Origin: a virus
Length of the DNA stretch: 34,828 bases
Virus record (IMG/VR): IMGVR_UViG_3300043427_001374
Span: 1-34,828 of that record
Direction: 5' to 3' (one strand)
Shown: piece after piece, positions 9,841 through 29,923 of the stretch
Numbering within the stretch: the first letter of the stretch is position 1
Layout: every line of letters begins with the position of its first letter
Program-made: the position numbers and the translations under genes
The notes under the pieces: generated by a model
What the model was told of the DNA's origin: nothing
Seen by the model: the letters and a program-made list of their open reading frames with translations, nothing else
Databases searched by the model: none

Positions 9841-10728
9841 TTACATTTCTTTCGGGTCGTGTTCGGTTTTTTTTATAAGGCTCATCCCGTATTGGTCCGT
9901 GCCGCTGGGCCACGGAGACAGGTCGGAGCGGCGGATCAGCTTATTGCGCTTGAACGGGCGGTAGTCAACGTGGTGGTGCCAGCGGTTGAATCGCCACACG
10001 ACCTTCGCCACATCGGGGTGCAGGTCGGCAATCATCTGGGATTTCGCCAGCGTCCCCTCGCTCTTGTAGAACTCCTCCGTGTTCCCACCCGACATACGCT
10101 GGGTCGTGACCTTGCCGCACAGGAAGGCGTTGAACTGAACGGTGCATTGCCCGCCCTTCAAGACTCGCAGGGACAGGTCCGTGTCCTCGTTGTAGCGGCC
10201 CCGCCACCGAAACGGCAGATCGTTCTGGATGAGCAGGCAAGAGTAAATGCGCGTGTTCAGGACGTAAGCTGGCAGCGCGTCCCCCTTCTTGGCGAACGAG
10301 TAGTAGTTCGGGCCAGCGAGCGGGACGTTCGTGTAGCGGTCCACGAAGTCCTCCATTGCGCGAATCGTGGAGTCGCAGAACACCTCATACTTCTCGTTGT
10401 GCGTCAGGCGGTGAAAGGCGTCAAGGTTATCGTCCATCACCCAATGCCGCCGTGCGCCGGACTGGATGGCGTGATTCCACGCAAAGTTCCTCGCCGCGCC
10501 AGGCCCCCGTGGTTTCGCTCCGCCGAACGCGTCACAGGTGTCGTAGTCGGTCAGGTACGACGGCGGCAGGACAAGCAGCGGACACGACACCGCACGGGCA
10601 TACGCCTCAACCTGTTCGGCCTCCACAATCATCGTGTGCGGGACGCCCATATCGTTTAGGGCTTTGTGCGTCAGCGGGTTCCTCCATCGCCCCTTTGACA
10701 CGATGTAGACCGGATAGCGGTTAGCCAT
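9841..10728 (-). CDS. TET-associated-type glycosyltransferase (TAGT), candidate DNA base modification enzyme
   Basis: The 295 residues match the phage TET-associated glycosyltransferase family, a GT-A-like fold predicted to add sugars to hydroxymethylated bases in phage DNA. The N terminus is PVYIVSKGRW, followed by GAARNFAWNHA (77-87). The acidic metal-binding segment HWVMDDNLDAF (95-105; Asp99, Asp100) and RYNEDTDLSLR (178-188) complete the core. All are intact and the length is normal. It is co-directional with and overlaps the small gene at 10721 by eight bases, and lies in the operon headed by the replication-initiator-like gene. No TET/JBP dioxygenase is visible here, so its acceptor is unclear. 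The C-terminal codons contain a run of eight A. Confidence 0.8.
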   Translation of the reverse strand: MANRYPVYIVSKGRWRNPLTHKALNDMGVPHTMIVEAEQVEAYARAVSCPLLVLPPSYLTDYDTCDAFGGAKPRGPGAARNFAWNHAIQSGARRHWVMDDNLDAFHRLTHNEKYEVFCDSTIRAMEDFVDRYTNVPLAGPNYYSFAKKGDALPAYVLNTRIYSCLLIQNDLPFRWRGRYNEDTDLSLRVLKGGQCTVQFNAFLCGKVTTQRMSGGNTEEFYKSEGTLAKSQMIADLHPDVAKVVWRFNRWHHHVDYRPFKRNKLIRRSDLSPWPSGTDQYGMSLIKKTEHDPKEM

Positions 10729-14851: not shown

Positions 14852-15483
14852 TATGCAACCCGCTCCCAAACGGCGGCGTAAAAGGTGGTGGGGGTGGACC
14901 ATTGGTTTGCGGTCTCGCCGCGCACCATCAGCGTTTCGCGGAAGCCCTCGGCGACCAAGACCCGCCGCAGTTCCGACTCCTGTAAAACGTGGAGGTGAAG
15001 CGCATCCGTCGGGACGCCGATCCACTCAAAGAGCCGCAGCGTGTCCTTGGCATTGCGGCACGCCACGCGCAGGGTGGCCTCCCAATCGATAACGTGCTGG
15101 AGGCAGTTATACATCCAGACTTCATCGGTCGGCTCGCCCACATAATGCTCGGCGGGCGTCACGAACCGCTCGATGCCGCGCTCGCGGTAGGTGCGTTCAT
15201 CTTCCGGCAGGAACTCCAGCGGGTCCACAGCAACCATCCGTCCGAGCGTGGGGTGCGTCAGCAACAGGGACTGCGGCCCACAGGCGAAGTCGGTGACGCT
15301 CGCGGTGCTTGGCACCTGCGTCGGGATACGCAGCATCCCCGCATACCACGCCCGCATCGCGTGTTCCCCACGCCGCCGGACTTCGGGGTCGGAATGGTCG
15401 CGCCAGCCCTCGACCCAGTCGCAATGGAAGCGACGCTCCCCGACCTGTGCCGCCACCCACCGCGCCTCGATGCCTACGCTCAT
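14851..15483 (-). CDS. class I SAM-dependent methyltransferase
   Basis: The 210-residue protein shows the Rossmann-type motif I DFACGP (65-70), AVDP (85-88) closing the second strand, and a post-motif VWMYNCLQHV (122-131). This is typical of small-molecule or sugar methyltransferases (Methyltransf_11/23-like), not DNA methyltransferases, because no PPY/DPPY catalytic loop is seen. The ATG at 15483 overlaps the glycosyltransferase stop (ATGA). The pair therefore probably builds or trims a methylated glycan, on the virion or the host surface; this is inference. Confidence 0.8.
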   Translation of the reverse strand: MSVGIEARWVAAQVGERRFHCDWVEGWRDHSDPEVRRRGEHAMRAWYAGMLRIPTQVPSTASVTDFACGPQSLLLTHPTLGRMVAVDPLEFLPEDERTYRERGIERFVTPAEHYVGEPTDEVWMYNCLQHVIDWEATLRVACRNAKDTLRLFEWIGVPTDALHLHVLQESELRRVLVAEGFRETLMVRGETANQWSTPTTFYAAVWERVA

Positions 15484-16607
15484 TCGGCCCATCCGGTTGA
15501 AGGAAACCCGCCCGCCTTGGCGATTGCCGACATTTCGGGAAACACCTCGGCATACATCCGGCCCACCGCCGCAAGGCTGTACTTGGCGATGGCCCGCGCA
15601 CGAATGGCGCGACGATCCAACGCCAGCACCGCGTCCAAGGCCCGCAGCCATTCGGCCTCGGTCTGACACCGATACCCTGTCACGCCGTGCGTGACGGTCT
15701 CCGTGAACGCGCCGAACGCCGAGGTAATCGCGGGGGTTCCGCAGAGCGCGGCCTCAACCACGGTGCCGCAAAACGGCTCAACGTAGCGCGAGGGCGCGAT
15801 GATGGCACGGGCGTTGCCAAGGTAGGCGGCACGCTCGGCATTGAGCGGCCCCAAGACTTCTACGTTGTCCGGCACCTCGCCCCACGACGGGTCAAGCACA
15901 CCGCTTCCCGCAACCTTGAACGGGATATCAGGCCGCTTCCGCGCCAAGTCAAAGACCACGCGCAAGCCCTTCCCCTCGGTCAACCGCCCCAAGAATACCA
16001 CCGCATCGCCGCCCTCACCTTCGGGCCAGTCGGCGGGGTCGTAATAGTTCGGCACCACGTACTCCAAACGGCGCGACGATTCGTGGACCCCGAACCGCCC
16101 CTCCTTCCCCATCGCGGCGTGCCGCACCGCTTCCGATTCGTAGATGCGCCACGGCAAGAGGCAATCGAAGTACCCGATGCCAGACTCCACGGCCCCCGCC
16201 CCATCCCGCAGGTTGGGCAAGCCACGGATCGCGGCGGCGTGCGCGTGACCGAACGGAAGCAGGATAAGGTCGCCAGGCGCGACGCGCTCCTTCAGCTCCT
16301 CGCGGGCGTTGAGGTTCCATTGCCGATAGACGGGCGAGCCGTCCTTGGCATCGTCCCCGTACATCCCGCCCGTGGCGTGTTGCGCGTGATAGGCGTGGCC
16401 CAATAGCTCTTGGTGTTCGTCCTGCCCCATCAGCACGACATCGGCGTCCGCACCGGAGTCCGCGCCGTCGACGCCGTAGTGAATGACCTCAAAGCCATAG
16501 GGCCGCATCATCCGAGCGAACCGCAAGACCTTCCCCGTAAACGCGCAATGCGAGAAGTCGCTGCGCGTCACGGTATGGGGAATCGAAAGCAGGTGAAGGC
16601 GCGTCAT
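15480..16607 (-). CDS. GT4-like glycosyltransferase (GT-B fold)
   Basis: The 375-residue protein resembles family 4 retaining glycosyltransferases. The N-terminal acceptor domain starts LHLLSIPHTV. The donor domain includes VVFLGRLTEGKG and the EX7E signature in EPFCGTVVEAALCGTPAI, followed by GAFTETV. All hallmark residues are present. The ATG at 16607 follows ACAGGACA. An upstream TTG at 16640 would overlap the tail hub gene by 11 bases and is less likely. It lies right after the tail hub gene and overlaps the methyltransferase gene. The likely donor is a nucleotide sugar; the acceptor may be tail protein or host glycan. Confidence 0.88.
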   Translation of the reverse strand: MTRLHLLSIPHTVTRSDFSHCAFTGKVLRFARMMRPYGFEVIHYGVDGADSGADADVVLMGQDEHQELLGHAYHAQHATGGMYGDDAKDGSPVYRQWNLNAREELKERVAPGDLILLPFGHAHAAAIRGLPNLRDGAGAVESGIGYFDCLLPWRIYESEAVRHAAMGKEGRFGVHESSRRLEYVVPNYYDPADWPEGEGGDAVVFLGRLTEGKGLRVVFDLARKRPDIPFKVAGSGVLDPSWGEVPDNVEVLGPLNAERAAYLGNARAIIAPSRYVEPFCGTVVEAALCGTPAITSAFGAFTETVTHGVTGYRCQTEAEWLRALDAVLALDRRAIRARAIAKYSLAAVGRMYAEVFPEMSAIAKAGGFPSTGWAE

Positions 16608-16629
16608 TGTCCTGTCAATATAACGCCAG

Positions 16630-19600
16630 CTAAACGGCAAGTGCTAGGTTATACGTCGTGCCGCCAATCTCGACCGTGATATATCCCGTAGTGTCAAGGC
16701 TGACGGTGGTCGCGTTGTGGACGCCGAGCTTCCAGACGCCAGCGGTCGAGCCGCCGGGCGCGGCGGTCTTGACGCTCCCCGTGCTACCAAGGTCCAACGC
16801 CCCCGCATCAGAGAGCGTCATCGTTGCCGAGGACTGAATCAGTTTGCCCGTCGTGCCATCGAACCGCACCACGGCATTGTCGACGCTCGACGCAGGGCCG
16901 ACCACATCGCCCGCCGCTGTACTCCACGCCACATCGTAGCTCGTGTTGCTTGACTTGACCAAGACCTGCCCCGTCGTACCGCCGGGCGGCAAGACCTCAT
17001 CGGGATCAAAGCCCTGCAACACAATGTCTCGCGTGAGCAACTGCCCATCGGCGTACACATAGAACGTGTAGGTATCGGTAGACCCGACGCCGGGGTTGGC
17101 GATTGACCACGGCGAGGTCGGCTGCGGCGACAACGGCGCACCGCTCTGCCAAATCTCCACCTGCCCAATCGTCCCCGCGCTCCACTTCACCGTAAAGTTT
17201 GGCGAGCCGGGGGCGACGTTTACCTGCAAGGTCGGCGTAATGCGCGAGGGCCGTGCCACCTTCGGCGGCAAGCTCCCCACTACGCCCGACACAATCGGGT
17301 AGGGCCACGGCGAGGCGAGGTAGGGGCCGAGGTTGTTCTGATAGGCACTCGCCGTAAAGCCACCGCCAACGTGCCGCGAGCGATACCAGAAGGTCGCGCC
17401 CGTTGACGGCAACGGATCGCCAAAGACCTGCGTCGTTCCCGGCACGATGGCAATGGTGGCCCACGTGCCAGGCGAGCCGCCGCTGTCCGGCGCACGTTGG
17501 ATTTCGATGTCTAACGTTTCGTCGCCCGCCCACAATCCAAGCGCGATGCCCGACGGGTACTGCGCGTCCTCTAGCGTTGGAATAACACCCATATGCGAGA
17601 CACGGGGGGCCGTGACCGAGGTGCTTGCCGCGCTCGTGAAGCCGTTCGTCGCGTAGGCCGAGACCGCGCCCGTCCCTGCATCCTCGTGTGCCACCGCCAC
17701 GCGGTAGGCCGTCGATGCCGTCAGGTCGCGGAAGGTGATACCCGTGCTTTCGGCATCCAGCGTGGCGACGCGATAGGGTTCCCAATCCGTCGGGTTTACC
17801 AACCCTTGATAGAGATACACGGCGACGCGGTCAATCGCGTTGCCGTTCGTCCACGTTACCTTCGCCGCCGTCGCGCTTGTCGTGCCAATCGTCAACGCGC
17901 TTGGGGCAACCCACGCATCCAACGCCACGTTCACCCACGAGGACCACGCCGAGGGACGCCGTTCGGGGGCCGTGCTACGCGCCCGCACCCACACCCGCGA
18001 GCCTGGCACAAAGGCGGGCAGCAACACCTTGCCCGTCGGAATTTCGCCCGCGAGATAACGGGTCAAGGTCGTGCCGTTCGCCGCTGGCGTTGACGCTCCC
18101 GTATCGTACTCGACCTCGGCACCGATCCCATTTGAGTTCAAGGTTCCGGCGTTCGTGATTGTGAACGATGCGAGCGTGCGCGGATTGAGCGTTTCCTTGG
18201 CGACCGTCAGGGTCGGGGCCGTAGCAAGCTGGCTATTCGGGCCGCTGTCCACGAGCTTGAACACCGGACCCACGGGGGTCTCGTCGCGCCGCACGACCTG
18301 TGCAACCCGCGCCCCAATCGTGCTTTCGCCAATCCGGTAGTTCTGGTTCGGCACGTGCGCGGCGGTAATCAACACCTCGTCGCCCACCTGCGCCGCCGCC
18401 GCTGCGGACGTATCCAACACGGGCAGTTCATACGTCGGCGCACCGCGCCCAAAGCGGTCAAAGATTTCGGCGGCGGTCCCCGAAATCAACAACCCCATAT
18501 CGGGTTGCCACGCATCCACGGTATGCACCATACCGGGAATGTCATACGAAATGACGCGAGTCGAGAACGTGGACGTATCGCCGGACGGCAACTCTAAAAC
18601 GTGTTCGCTTTCCACGATTCCGTCGGGCGGGGGCGGCTCGTTGCTTGACGGATCGGTGATGGCCTTGGCAAGCACCCGATACCCGTACTGCACCGCCGTG
18701 GCAACCGTCACCTCGTCAATGTCAAACCCGCTCGGCAACGACTCGCCTACAAGGTCGTTCGTGGCAATGGTCAAGGTCGGCGCAATGGTGCCGATTCGGG
18801 TCGAAAAAAACGTCTGCTTGCCCGTGCTATCCGTGCGGGCCGAGAATCCGAACGGCCCATAGATGGCCTTGGTCAGGAACTCGCCCATCGGCTGCGGTTC
18901 CGTAATGCGGCACGCGAGCCGGACATTGGCCCCGATAAGATTGCGGATCGTGGTCGCCGAGGTCGTATCATACGGGATGTTGACCGAATCATAGAGCTTG
19001 GTCGCCACATCCACCGGATGCTCGTCAAAGTAGAGCGGCGAGGCTTCCGATACCACGCTATGCACAATGCGGACGCGCAGCTTGGTGCCGACAGATGGCA
19101 CCGCTGGCTGTCCTGCGTCAAGCGTCACATAGATGTACGGGAACTGCGCCCCGCTTGCCTGTGGGCTTCCTCCTCCGGCCTGACCCGTCGTGGTAATGCG
19201 ACCCCACGGGAAGAACGCCCGCAAGCCGCCAACCCAAGTCCCGCCCGCGCCATCATTGACGTACACACGCAAGCTCGGAAACCACACGTTCCCGCGCTCG
19301 CGGGGCGGTTTGGTCAGCGGATAAAAGACGGGTGCGCTATATGCCCCCGTCGTTGCGGCAACGCCGAACGGCGCGAGAATCTTGTTTGCGTACCCTGCAT
19401 ACTCGCCGAAGGATTGCGTGCGCGTGTAGTTCGGCGCAACGTCCGAGGCGGCAAGCCACTTGAGGGCCATAATGCGGTCGCTATTGTCGGCCCAAATCGC
19501 GGACTCGCTCGCCGTCAATTCCGTTTCGATGCCGCCCGAATCGCTAGTCGGCCCGAACCCGTTGATGATAGGACCGCCCAACAAGCACCCGCGATTCGGG

Positions 19601-25382: not shown

Positions 25383-25624
25383 TGCGTCACCCGCTCGCGG
25401 AGGGATCGCAACGCCATTGCCACCGTCGGCCCCGTTCCCGTCACGCGCTCGCCCTCATCGGGTTCCCACTCGACCGCCATCGCCACGCCCCATACCGGAT
25501 AGACGGACATCGTGCCGCCGTACTCGCCAAGGAACGCATCGACGCGGGCCGCATCCTCGGGGCTGGTTGCCATCTGCCGCAGGTCCATTCCGCACATTAG
25601 GCGGGCATCGGTGCCGTATCGCAT
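25376..25624 (-). CDS. small neck-region protein
   Basis: The 82-residue protein (MRYGTDARLMCGMDLRQMA, then GGTMSVYPVWGVAMAVEWEP) overlaps the head-tail joining gene by one base (TAATG) and the next by seven. It sits where siphophages often encode adaptor or minor head proteins. I do not recognise a family. Confidence 0.6.
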   Translation of the reverse strand: MRYGTDARLMCGMDLRQMATSPEDAARVDAFLGEYGGTMSVYPVWGVAMAVEWEPDEGERVTGTGPTVAMALRSLRERVTQC

Positions 25625-26034
25625 TAGGTCGCTGGCCCCACAAGGTGAACGCCATCGAGAGTTTCGTCGCCCTCAAACAACTCAAAGGTCGCATAGGCCG
25701 TCGGGTCGATGGCCTCGAGCGAGATGACCTGCACTCGCAACTGGCGGCTCGGCACCACGCCCCGCACAAAGTAGAGCGTCGCGTCGAGCGTGTCCTTGAC
25801 GATGCCGAAGCTATCCACCGCCACGCCCTCGGCGACCATCGCCACCGCATCCGTGCGAATCTCTACGTGCGCCTGCGGCGAGAACGCCACCTGTTGCCGT
25901 GCGGCGGTCCGGTCCACGCGCCCCCACCGCTCCACGCCGAAGATGTAGACGGGGCGAGCGAAGCCGTCCGCGCCGTTCTCAAACCGCTGATAGAACCGCA
26001 GGCGGCGATCCAAGAGGCCAGGCGCGACGTACAT
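25624..26034 (-). CDS. head-tail joining protein (HT_join-like)
   Basis: The 136-residue protein has the N-terminal LLDRRLRFYQR motif and a beta-barrel-like body (QVAFSPQAHVEIRTDAV, VPSRQLRVQVIS) typical of the Phage_H_T_join/head closure family. It caps the connector and joins the tail. It overlaps the connector gene by one base. Confidence 0.82.
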   Translation of the reverse strand: MYVAPGLLDRRLRFYQRFENGADGFARPVYIFGVERWGRVDRTAARQQVAFSPQAHVEIRTDAVAMVAEGVAVDSFGIVKDTLDATLYFVRGVVPSRQLRVQVISLEAIDPTAYATFELFEGDETLDGVHLVGPAT

Positions 26035-26591
26035 TAGGACGCCACCGCAAGGCGCAAGTGCCGCACCGCCTTCTCCGTGCGAGCCGCCATCTCACGGGAC
26101 GTATCCCACGAGATGCTGGTTCCCGCCCCCGTTTCGCTCGCGGCCCTCGGCGTCCGCTGCTGATACAGCTCGCAGGCCACATCAATGATGACCTGCCCCA
26201 CCATTGCCTCGGTCGCCGGATAGTCGGCACGAAGCGAAAGGCCCGCGCCGTAGGTCACGACATAGGGCATATTCCAAAAGGTCAGACCCGTGGCGGCGTA
26301 GATGATGCCCGCCCCCGCATCGACCCGATAGTCGGCAACCGCCATCGCCACGCCGTCCCCGTCCACAATCGAAGTGACCGAGACCGGACGATGGGGCAAC
26401 ACGATAGACGGCGCGGAGACAATCGACGCATCCTGCGCCGTGTAGGTGAAGGTCCGCGCCGATACGGGCAGGCCGATATAGCCCTCGACGTACTGCGTTG
26501 CCGCCGTCAAGAGGCGCGAGAGCAGGGCATCTTCCGTCGTGGTCTCGATGCGGAGATACGCCTTCAGGTCCGTTACCGTCGGCAATGGCAT
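26034..26591 (-). CDS. head-tail connector protein (gp6-like adaptor)
   Basis: The 185-residue protein has the HK97 gp6-like layout: an N-terminal helical start (TVTDLKAYLRIETTTEDALL), a beta core (IVLPHRPVSVTSIVDGDGV) and C-terminal helices. These adaptors form a ring under the portal. It follows the capsid-linked glycosyltransferase without a gap. Confidence 0.87.
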   Translation of the reverse strand: MPLPTVTDLKAYLRIETTTEDALLSRLLTAATQYVEGYIGLPVSARTFTYTAQDASIVSAPSIVLPHRPVSVTSIVDGDGVAMAVADYRVDAGAGIIYAATGLTFWNMPYVVTYGAGLSLRADYPATEAMVGQVIIDVACELYQQRTPRAASETGAGTSISWDTSREMAARTEKAVRHLRLAVAS

Positions 26592-27806
26592 TTACCGCGC
26601 CCCCGTCAAGATGTCGTGATACCGCTGCCCCACCACGGGGTAGTCGTGATGCGCCGTCACATAAGCTCGTGCGCGTTCGCCTTCCAATCTACACCACGCG
26701 GGATCGCTTGCGAACCGCCGCAAGACATCCCGCAATGCATCGGCATTGTCGGCGACCGTGTAGGGATACGGGATGTTGACGCGCCGATAGTCCGCGTCCT
26801 CCGTCCCCGCCACCACCGCCTGCCCCATCGCCGCCGCCTCAAGTCCGCTCCCTTGCATCCCAAGCCAGAAGCTATCGAAGGTCACATCGCAGGTCGCCTT
26901 CACACGCAACGCCTCGGCGTGCGGCAGTCCCTCAATCAGCACGGCCTCAATCGCCACGCCCTCGGCCTGTAGGTCAGCGACCACCGCAAGGAAGGCGTCC
27001 GTCCCCTTGATTTCCCGACGGGTCGGCGAGTGCGCCACGCGCAACGTCGGCCCCCGTGTATGCCCCTTGGCGAGCGCGGCGTAGTCCCGCACGGGCATCG
27101 GGATCGGAAGCCAATGCACGTGGTCGCCGAACCGTAGGTGATAGGGCCGCGCCCCGAATACCGTTGACCCCATCCTCGCATCAGCCTCTGGGAACGTGAT
27201 GCGAGGGCGGCGCGGCTCCAGCGATCCGTGATAGGTTATCGCCATCCGCTTGCCGTAGGGAATCCCGCCAAGCTCCTGTAACGGCAGGTTGTAGTCCATA
27301 TGGCAATGCACAAGGTCGGCGGTCTGGTACAGCACCCGCACCTGTGCGATGTCCGTCACAACGTCCCATTGCCGCAGGTCGCAGGACGGGTTGCTATGCC
27401 CAAGGCGGGCGAACGCCGACACCACCCCGCTTACCGTGTTCGCCGCCGAATGGTAGCGGTACACGCTTGCGCCAGGGTCGTAGTGCGTCAGGTGCAACAC
27501 CCGAAGCCCACGCGGGGTCGCCGCCTTGTAGTGCGTCGTGATTCCGTCGGGAGTCAGGACGCGGCCTTGCGCGTGCCAGAGCGCATCCAACTGCGCCTGT
27601 GTCCACAGCACGCCTCGGCTATGCCAGTATGCCGCCGTTTCGCCATCGACCTCGTACCAGCGTCCGGCGACCGTGCGGGTCGTGCCAAGTACCGCCTCCC
27701 CCGCCGCATAGCACGACACGGCAGAAACGGCAACAGCCGGAGCCGAGGGCGTCCCCTCGACTCCGACCGTCTGTGCTACCGCTTCGCGCTTACGAGAGCG
27801 CGCCAT
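26592..27806 (-). CDS. capsid-linked glycosyltransferase (GT4-like) with N-terminal extension
   Basis: The 404-residue protein has about 100 N-terminal residues unrelated to the enzyme (RWYEVDGETAAYWHSRGVLW near 49-68) that resemble small phage structural stub domains. A GT-B glycosyltransferase follows, starting LRVLHLTHYDPGASVYRYHS, with GSTVFGARPYHLRF and a donor signature SGLEAAAMGQAVVAGTEDA. The first Glu of EX7E is not in its usual place. I chose the ATG at 27806, which overlaps the capsid gene end by 17 bases; a longer frame runs into that gene. Being coupled to the capsid gene suggests that it glycosylates, or docks on, the virion; this is inference. Confidence 0.85.
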   Translation of the reverse strand: MARSRKREAVAQTVGVEGTPSAPAVAVSAVSCYAAGEAVLGTTRTVAGRWYEVDGETAAYWHSRGVLWTQAQLDALWHAQGRVLTPDGITTHYKAATPRGLRVLHLTHYDPGASVYRYHSAANTVSGVVSAFARLGHSNPSCDLRQWDVVTDIAQVRVLYQTADLVHCHMDYNLPLQELGGIPYGKRMAITYHGSLEPRRPRITFPEADARMGSTVFGARPYHLRFGDHVHWLPIPMPVRDYAALAKGHTRGPTLRVAHSPTRREIKGTDAFLAVVADLQAEGVAIEAVLIEGLPHAEALRVKATCDVTFDSFWLGMQGSGLEAAAMGQAVVAGTEDADYRRVNIPYPYTVADNADALRDVLRRFASDPAWCRLEGERARAYVTAHHDYPVVGQRYHDILTGAR

Positions 27807-29139
27807 CCAGCACCACGAAGGGGCTGTGCGGATCGACCTTGTTGCCAGAGCCGTCAATCTTGTAGGCGTAGGTCGAGGTCGGAAGCGGGATACCACCGCC
27901 ACGCGCCACGAAGCGGTAGGTGGTGATGTCCTGCGTGAAGCGGAAGTGAATCGACGACTCCACCGTGAGAGCCTGACGCAGGCCAGCGGCGTAGAAGTCG
28001 GGGTTCACGAGCGAGATGTCAGCCGTGGTACCGAGCGACGGAAGGAAGTCCGTCACGGTCACGGGCAGGCCGAGGAGGACCATCTGCGGCTTCTCGCGGA
28101 GGTTCTGCATCCAAGTCACCATCGTGTTGTTGGTGGTCTGGAGCGCGAAGAGCTGCTCGATGGCACGACGGCTGATGAACCAACGGCTGTTCGGGCCGTG
28201 GGTGTGGCGCGAGTACATCTTGAACACGTCAGCGGCGGCGATGGCGTTGAGGCCAGCGCGGAACACCGAGAGGCGTGCGCCGTTGCCGGAATTGAGCGCA
28301 CCAAGGGGCGCACCCGTGCCGCCGCCGTCGATGGTGATGTCCTCGTTCATCTTGTTGATGATCTGTCCACCAACCGCAGACACGACCTCGGCGGGCAGCT
28401 CGCCCGTGAAGTCATCGCCGAGGAGTTCGTCGCCGAACTCGGAGATGGCGGCGTACTTGTACATCGTCAGCAAACGCTGCTGGAACGACGGCTCGCGGGT
28501 CGGCTTGGTTGCGGCCTCGTCCACGATGGTGACGTTAGCAATCGAACCCGCCATCGGGCGGTTGAGGACCGTGGTTCCCGTGTCCTGAATGAGGTACGGG
28601 ATGCGGAGCGAGCGGCCCGGCACGTTGTACTTGCGGGCGTACTGCATCACGCCTTCCTGCGCGTTCGAGGTCGAGAAGATTTCCGCGACCTGCGAGAGCG
28701 GGAGGAGGTAGTCGCCGCCGTTGGTGCTGCCCGTGATGGTACGGGTGAGCATATCAATCTGGCGCAGCGCGGCCTTCTCTGCATCGTTCGCCGGACCCTT
28801 GGCGATGGCGCGGACGTAGGCACCCATCGAACGGAAGCCCTCGCGCACGACATTGGCGACCTGCTTGTGACCGTCAGCCATCGACTCGACTTCGCCGCGC
28901 CCGTTGGCGTCGACGCGGACCAGCTCGCCCGCGCCACCCTGACGCTCAACTTCGGCGTCGGCGGTGAACTCGGCAACGGTGTTGGCGCGGACTTCAAGCG
29001 CACGGATATCCGCAACGCGCTTCTCAACCTCTTCAGCGGAGAACGACGCGGACGGATCGGCAAGCTCGGAACGGAGCGCGTGCGCCTTCTCGCGCAGCTC
29101 GTTCGCGGCTCGGTTCTTGGAAACGAGTGGAGCCTTCAT
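27790..29139 (-). CDS. major capsid protein (HK97 fold)
   Basis: The 449-residue protein starts with a charged helical scaffold (about 1-100, coiled coil EEVEKRVADIRALEVRA). The mature HK97-fold arm motif STNGGDYLLPLSQ (138-150) follows. Later come SFQQRLLTMYKYAAISEFGD and GGGTGAPLGALNS. The scaffold domain is expected to be removed by the protease encoded just upstream. The ATG at 29139 follows AGGGG and seven bases after the protease stop. The longer upstream frame is rejected since it runs through the protease gene. Confidence 0.95.
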   Translation of the reverse strand: MKAPLVSKNRAANELREKAHALRSELADPSASFSAEEVEKRVADIRALEVRANTVAEFTADAEVERQGGAGELVRVDANGRGEVESMADGHKQVANVVREGFRSMGAYVRAIAKGPANDAEKAALRQIDMLTRTITGSTNGGDYLLPLSQVAEIFSTSNAQEGVMQYARKYNVPGRSLRIPYLIQDTGTTVLNRPMAGSIANVTIVDEAATKPTREPSFQQRLLTMYKYAAISEFGDELLGDDFTGELPAEVVSAVGGQIINKMNEDITIDGGGTGAPLGALNSGNGARLSVFRAGLNAIAAADVFKMYSRHTHGPNSRWFISRRAIEQLFALQTTNNTMVTWMQNLREKPQMVLLGLPVTVTDFLPSLGTTADISLVNPDFYAAGLRQALTVESSIHFRFTQDITTYRFVARGGGIPLPTSTYAYKIDGSGNKVDPHSPFVVLDGALS

Positions 29140-29146
29140 AGTTGGA

Positions 29147-29923
29147 TTACCCCTGATGGGTAGAAGTAAGGAAAGAGCGACGGACAGCGGCAATGCGCTC
29201 GTCCATCGAGGCCACGCGGGGGGCGTCAGGGGCGTCGTTCGCTCGCGTGTCCGTGGACGAGGCGGGAACGGGGGCCGGAATTGCGGCGTCCGCGTATGCC
29301 CCAAGGATAACGCCCCGCAGTTCGGCGGGCAAGGCCTCTAGCGCAAGTCGGGCGGCAATCACCAGCAACTCGTCATCGGACCGCTCGGCGGGAGCCTCGG
29401 CCTCTTGACGCGCCCCAAGGATGTCGGCCCCTGGCACCGCTGGCATCGGCGTAATGCTGACCTCGCGGAGTTCAATCTCCGTGAAGCGTTCCACGCGCTG
29501 CCCCTCTACCGTCACGGCCTCGGACTGACGCGGCACGAAGCCGACGCTAAAGCCCGTGGACGCCTCGGACGCCAGTACCGCCTTGACATACTCCAATGCC
29601 GCCCGACCCTCGGCGGTATCAAAGACATCGGCAGTCATCACGAGCGCATCGCCGACTTCCTCAAGGGACCGCACTACGCCAACGTGAGCGCGGGTCGAGC
29701 GTTCGTGATCCATCAGCAGCGGGAGCTTGCCCGCCTTGACGCGGGTATCGATGGACCGCTTGGCGCACCCACGGGCGAACATCGTCCCGTAGCTGTCCAC
29801 CACATCGTAGGTCAGGGCGATGCCGGACACGCGCCCCGCGATTCCGGCGGGCAGTTCGGTCTCGGCGCGGACCTCAAGGGTCGCGTCCGAGAGGTGGTAT
29901 CGCTTTTCGGCGAGGGTTTTCAT
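29147..29923 (-). CDS. prohead protease (HK97 gp4-like, U35)
   Basis: The 258-residue serine protease shows the family active-site region LLMDHERST (His73) and STGFSVGF (Ser126 probable nucleophile), followed by ELREVSITPMPAVPGA (151-166). It processes the capsid delta domain during maturation. The C-terminal 90 residues are extended and acidic/Pro-Ala-rich. It lies seven bases before the capsid gene, the usual order. Confidence 0.95.
   Translation of the reverse strand: MKTLAEKRYHLSDATLEVRAETELPAGIAGRVSGIALTYDVVDSYGTMFARGCAKRSIDTRVKAGKLPLLMDHERSTRAHVGVVRSLEEVGDALVMTADVFDTAEGRAALEYVKAVLASEASTGFSVGFVPRQSEAVTVEGQRVERFTEIELREVSITPMPAVPGADILGARQEAEAPAERSDDELLVIAARLALEALPAELRGVILGAYADAAIPAPVPASSTDTRANDAPDAPRVASMDERIAAVRRSFLTSTHQG

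Follow-up and report, generated by a model that had tools for sequence, protein, structure and literature searches.

Why would a phage start the gene for a glycosyltransferase (GT) inside that for its major capsid protein (MCP), and what might be done by the hundred or so residues that precede the catalytic part of the enzyme? The question is raised by the window, the whole stretch of DNA analysed here (an IMG/VR virus record of 34,828 bases), where the preliminary description had placed the start 17 bases inside the capsid gene. The coordinates bear this out exactly: on the minus strand the MCP gene ends with its stop codon at 27790-27792 and the GT gene begins with the ATG at 27804-27806, giving an overlap of 17 nt, and at its other end the GT gene directly abuts that of a gp6-like connector (26034-26591; Table 1).

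Phage-encoded glycosylation of virions (Che8, Corndog) is already known, as are the proteins of the gpFI/DUF7210 kind that the extension of the window's enzyme resembles. Capsid and tail tube glycosylation has been reported for mycobacteriophages (PMC12363180, PMC11256854). The GTs of Che8 (gp110) and Corndog (gp38) are phage-encoded, as here, but differ in that the available parts of these two papers describe no fusion to a head module; in Maravista the GT genes are found away from the MCP gene, close to the genome's 3' end. In the libraries and literature searched, a GT fused to a gpFI/DUF7210 protein, in a lineage where sisters have the protein free or not at all, had no cultured or published counterpart.

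A glycosyltransferase gene lodged among head genes

Relatives of the fusion gene are encoded on 89 IMG/VR stretches, and the order protease-MCP-GT-connector is found in them wherever contigs are long enough. About 80 IMG/VR loci share the MCP-GT-connector synteny, so the arrangement is not a matter of chance, and in most of these the overlapping ATG is kept at -17 or -20. One GT-bearing clade (L005-L015, L019-L022 and their relatives) has ACA in its place; many members of this clade have a possible start (ATG, GTG or TTG) 70 nt after the MCP stop, where the small domain begins. On a further contig (L066, 515-1706) the GT reading frame is divided between two overlapping frames, so that either the gene is frameshifted or the contig is erroneous. 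Among 50,697 cultured phage records, a search for a close relative of the head GT returned only one weak GT match (E 2e-4), and PHROGs holds no family for it.

Table 1. Features of the head region of the window (positions in the window; residues are those of the fusion protein)
Feature	Position	Strand	Evidence
Fusion gene: hairpin-encoded tail, gpFI/DUF7210-like domain and GT-B glycosyltransferase, 404 aa	26592..27806	-	ORF, model, synteny, conservation in 51 unique loci
Major capsid protein (MCP)	27790..29139	-	Phage_capsid, PF05065, E 2.7e-21
Prohead protease (Peptidase_S78)	29147..29923	-	Family scan; precedes MCP
gp6-like head-tail connector (Ad1)	26034..26591	-	PF05135, E 6.9e-9; phrog_442
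Following connector gene, perhaps for head closure (weak)	25624..26034	-	phrog_25 head closure, E 0.072 only; position conserved among relatives
17-nt overlap with MCP, including ATG	27790..27806	-	ATG conserved at -17/-20 in relatives
RNA hairpin (18-bp stem, 4-nt loop), codons ~12-25 of the fusion gene	27732..27771	-	Fold z, stem survey, compensatory changes
Small domain resembling DUF7210 and the C-terminal domain of lambda gpFI, residues ~28-68	27603..27725	-	pLDDT, profile and structure matches, free gene in sisters
Linker, residues 69-98	27513..27602	-	Alignment; some relatives have about 30-40 additional residues
GT-B (GT4-like) catalytic domain, residues 99-404	26595..27512	-	VIA-align Z of 22.7 with 4xsr and comparable values with GT4 enzymes; invariant motifs

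The fusion protein was modelled by AlphaFold2 from 28 sequences (pLDDT 84.8). Residues 100-403 of the model align with 4xsr at a VIA Z of 22.7 (284 residues aligned, rmsd 3.5) and display two Rossmann-like domains in the GT-B topology, and GT-B enzymes at large align at Z of about 19-23, leaving residues 1-97 outside the alignment in most cases. With these matches limited to residues ~98-404, the extension was rejected as a part of the GT-B fold, and the earlier view that the extra residues form a separate domain is upheld by model and structure alignment alike; fold and fusion are both well supported. By sequence, the Pfam glycosyltransferase match of the 404-aa protein reaches 13.1 bits, under the cut-off of 25, and the best relative matches PF13692 at E 8.8e-4. 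GT4-like GT-B enzymes such as PimA, PglA and BshA share with the window's GT the common fold, the conserved His region, the R/K phosphate site and the second Glu of the EX7E motif, and in our GT alignment the YHGS segment, R264/K267 and E323 are invariant. The window's GT differs from these enzymes in that an invariant Leu (L315) replaces the first Glu, leaving EX7E incomplete, and in that its sequence lies below Pfam cut-offs. Because the core motifs are retained in 47-51 of the 51 unique fused loci, the head GT is, to judge from sequence conservation, probably an active enzyme.

Other GTs are encoded in the window and its relatives. A second GT4-type enzyme (phrog_3408) lies on the tail side at 15480-16640 (minus strand); it is present in all 10 GT-bearing relatives tested and in both contigs with a free small domain, and is tandemly duplicated in some. 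On an archaeal MAG contig (L084, 4585-8019) two adjacent GT-like genes stand just upstream of apparent head-tail genes, and one of them apparently encodes a double-GT protein related to the head GT of the window.

A small domain resembling gpFI and DUF7210

The extension (~98 residues) falls into three parts, a hairpin-encoded tail, a small domain and a linker. Most of the small domain is modelled at pLDDT >90, and it includes, as residues 50-66, the motif WYEVDGETAAYWHSRGV to which the preliminary description had drawn attention. That description had taken the extension as a whole for a virion-docking or structural domain; this stands for the ~40 residues that resemble the C-terminal domain of lambda gpFI and DUF7210, but not for the remainder, which is tail and linker. 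Since the resemblance is to a known head-binding module, a role of these ~40 residues in docking to the head would be reasonable to infer by analogy.

The resemblance emerges from comparison of profiles. Against a DUF7210-type profile (an eight-member alignment, TP84_13 included), hhalign gave the N-domain a probability of 91.6% and a score of 29.3, where the maximum in 40 column shuffles was 12.1; against the lambda gpFI C-terminal domain the score was 19.6 and the maximum in 40 shuffles 12.5, with the proviso that absolute hhalign scores overlap noise (a noise ORF of LKA5 scored 20.3). The gpFI alignment pairs the motif of the preliminary description, VAGRWYEVDGETAAYWHSRGV, with LPGTAFRVSAGVAAEMTERGL. 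Matches to Pfam DUF7210 (PF23843) are weak and confined to two of the 28 alignment members, and the consensus reaches 20.5 bits (E 3.5e-4), under the gathering cut-off of 27, with relatives below it too; for Packaging_FI (PF14000), no match is listed for the window or its relatives in a filtered scan, where absence is weak evidence. A Foldseek search of the PDB placed the gpFI C-terminal domain (2LSM) third, at a VIA Z of 4.7 and rmsd 1.6 over 46 residues, values equalled by the unrelated folds of GINS and ribosomal L9; all structure matches of the small domain are modest (VIA Z below 8) and overlap noise. Several of its structural neighbours in BFVD are named DUF7210.

Gene position was brought in through a blind search of all ORFs, in which the gene directly behind the MCP ranked first of 497, 466 and 564 in lambda, P74-26 and TP-84, respectively; since these three phages were picked after the structure search had pointed to them, the ranking tests position together with sequence, not an unbiased sample of phages. 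In the same ranking of VWB, LKA5, Kronos and Dagobah, other ORFs scored above the post-MCP gene and noise attained comparable scores, and hhalign of alignment A3 with the post-MCP protein of Caulobacter phage Kronos gave nothing. Across seven phage records a plain N-domain HMM had no significant match, the post-MCP ORFs of TP-84 and P74-26 lying in the top seven of 3744, and tblastn of the N-domain consensus against phages gave matches at chance level only.

Lambda gpFI and the small domain may have a predicted small fold in common; they share the signature PG-x-x-F/Y-x-V...A...RG and a gene placed directly between those for the MCP and the head-tail joining protein (E-FI-FII in lambda; between MCP and head-tail connector in the window and at 63 unique loci where the domain is fused or free). 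They differ in that gpFI has an extra N-terminal part and no enzyme, and in that head binding is putative for the domain of the window, for which the filtered scan listed no Packaging_FI match. The lambda protein is described as bound to the gpE lattice and assisting packaging (PMC4856287) and as acting through the major head protein (PMC7889075). DUF7210 proteins, such as gp89 of Thermus phage P74-26, and the similar TP84_13 share with the small domain profile similarity and small size; the genes of gp89 and TP84_13 stand directly behind the MCP, and TP84_13 was detected by mass spectrometry in purified particles (PMC5889276). Unlike the protein of the window, they are free-standing, with no GT fused. 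The fold is not confined to heads, since at five of six prophage loci the DUF7210 gene stood just before an apparent tail tube gene instead of following the MCP. Identity to the window's domain region is 20-37% among the N-domains of relatives, against 59-74% for the MCPs, and divergence as fast as this is not what is expected of tight docking on a conserved lattice.

Fused, free and absent states

Relatives that lack the head GT, brought in by MCP search, furnish a natural control. The fusion is present in 51 of 77 unique capsid loci, with an MCP-connector gap of 1.17-1.39 kb; 12 have a free small domain only and 14 have neither. The free gene of these 12 unique relatives encodes 78-83 aa and begins, as in the window, with an ATG at -17; its products, which were not among the sequences from which the N-domain HMM was built, are matched by it at E of about 1e-7. 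Its dN/dS of 0.24 indicates purifying selection, and the small domain therefore has a function of its own. As the same overlapping start occurs here with no GT behind it, the start is independent of the enzyme, and the idea that the overlap is specific to the GT was rejected.

Two of the GT-less contigs (33.5 and 28.5 kb) carry no head GT elsewhere and keep the second, tail-side GT, while five contigs with neither state hold no trace of the head GT. Its absence from several sister clades means that the head GT is not essential. In the MCP tree all loci in the free state fall into a single clade (99/94) that sits within fused lineages, whereas the state with neither arose several times, a pattern which would favour a fused ancestor with several losses, on a tree that is rooted on one long branch (L082) and in which the window's own placement is unsure.

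A hairpin behind the capsid stop codon

The overlapping start had also been read as coupling the enzyme's translation to the most abundant structural protein. A special tie of enzyme to capsid through the overlap is not borne out, the overlapping start belonging to the small gene, kept where there is no GT and lost in one GT-bearing clade; high expression by way of such coupling is made less plausible by a strong, conserved RNA hairpin right after the MCP stop. The hairpin of the window has a fold z of -6.1, with none of 200 shuffles as stable. An uninterrupted stem of 10-19 bp follows shortly after the MCP stop in 73 of 78 unique loci, in many different stem sequences (the median stem of shuffled sequences is 6 bp), and the median folding z is about -3.7 to -3.9 at the hairpin against -0.3 to -1.1 inside the MCP gene. 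Compensatory changes have altered 8 of 15 pairs on both sides in a 15-sequence alignment. The hairpin occurs in most phages of the lineage whether or not coding sequence lies there, and the protein tail that it encodes has a dN/dS of about 0.9, as expected of a passenger. Rfam returned chance matches only for the hairpin. As no clear U-tract follows it, the name of attenuator or processing hairpin would suit it better than that of standard terminator. Its more likely effect would be to limit or insulate the expression of what lies downstream, not to tie that expression to capsid levels.

What the fusion may be for

We put at about one in two the probability that the protein is a GT fused to a head protein of the gpFI/DUF7210 kind, the module bringing the enzyme to heads, where it would glycosylate the MCP or another virion protein. 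Sequence and predicted structure establish that the protein has two domains, that its gene keeps its position and that sisters have a free small gene with the same start; docking, the acceptor and the timing are what we infer, and the fast divergence of the domain and the sister clades that lack the GT call for caution. In outline, a small head protein normally encoded between MCP and head-tail connector would have become joined to a GT-B enzyme; its domain would bind the assembling head, as gpFI reportedly binds the lambda MCP, and so bring the GT to many copies of its acceptor, be this the MCP or another virion protein, with host sugar nucleotides as donor. The conserved hairpin would hold downstream expression under that of the MCP, so that production of the enzyme would be modest, at catalytic levels. 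A more tentative proposal, which we hold less likely than not, is that of a capsid-docked or virion-borne enzyme: anchored on the head lattice by the gpFI-like domain, the GT would coat the capsid with sugar as it assembles and would remain with the particle afterwards.

The fusion might instead be incidental, a genomic convenience with no bearing on targeting: the small domain would keep its role in the head or in packaging, and the GT would act elsewhere, be it on a small molecule, the cell envelope or a different part of the virion. The domain does function with no GT attached, one clade on the MCP tree has seemingly lost the GT and kept the domain, the linker varies in length, and the distant GT relative in the archaeal MAG lacks the domain, yet adjoins structural genes. 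A fusion of convenience is nonetheless hard to square with its stability over wide divergence (MCPs down to 59% identity; 51 unique loci), and a free version of this GT was absent from those lineage contigs that were searched whole; we consider it rather unlikely.

Some protein GTs (TarM/GtfA) have add-on beta domains for the acceptor, and GTs of this type occur among the GT-B structure matches, so that the small domain could be thought to recognise the substrate of the GT and to have nothing to do with heads. Sister phages with free small genes that share the same start, and the post-MCP genes of three unrelated phages that match the domain best, speak against substrate recognition and make it very improbable. 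Scarcely better placed is the proposal that the enzyme glucosylates modified DNA bases before or during packaging, in the manner of the T4 alpha-glucosyltransferase (AGT), with the domain bringing it to the packaging machinery. The close GT-B matches do include T4 AGT (Z 22.4), but it is no better a match than many protein, lipid or small-molecule GTs. The lambda protein gpFI is proposed to act via non-specific DNA binding (PMC4856287). The window also encodes a TET-associated glycosyltransferase (TAGT; PF20691, E 5e-43; 9841-10728, minus strand), whose substrate is puzzling; it is, however, missing in ten relatives, all with the head GT, and a TET/JBP dioxygenase was found in none of these or the window. 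DNA glucosylation is thus not supported as the main role, and we hold it improbable.

Implications

Head-targeted glycosylation, if it is what the fusion serves, would represent a built-in targeting device for virion glycosylation. The locus also illustrates how the coding sequence of the next protein can come to include a conserved RNA hairpin that stands behind the capsid gene. It offers a natural experiment, in that sisters about equally similar in capsid (~71% identical to that of the window) have the fusion, a free head module or nothing, and it provides new leads on the little-understood distribution and function of the gpFI/DUF7210 proteins.
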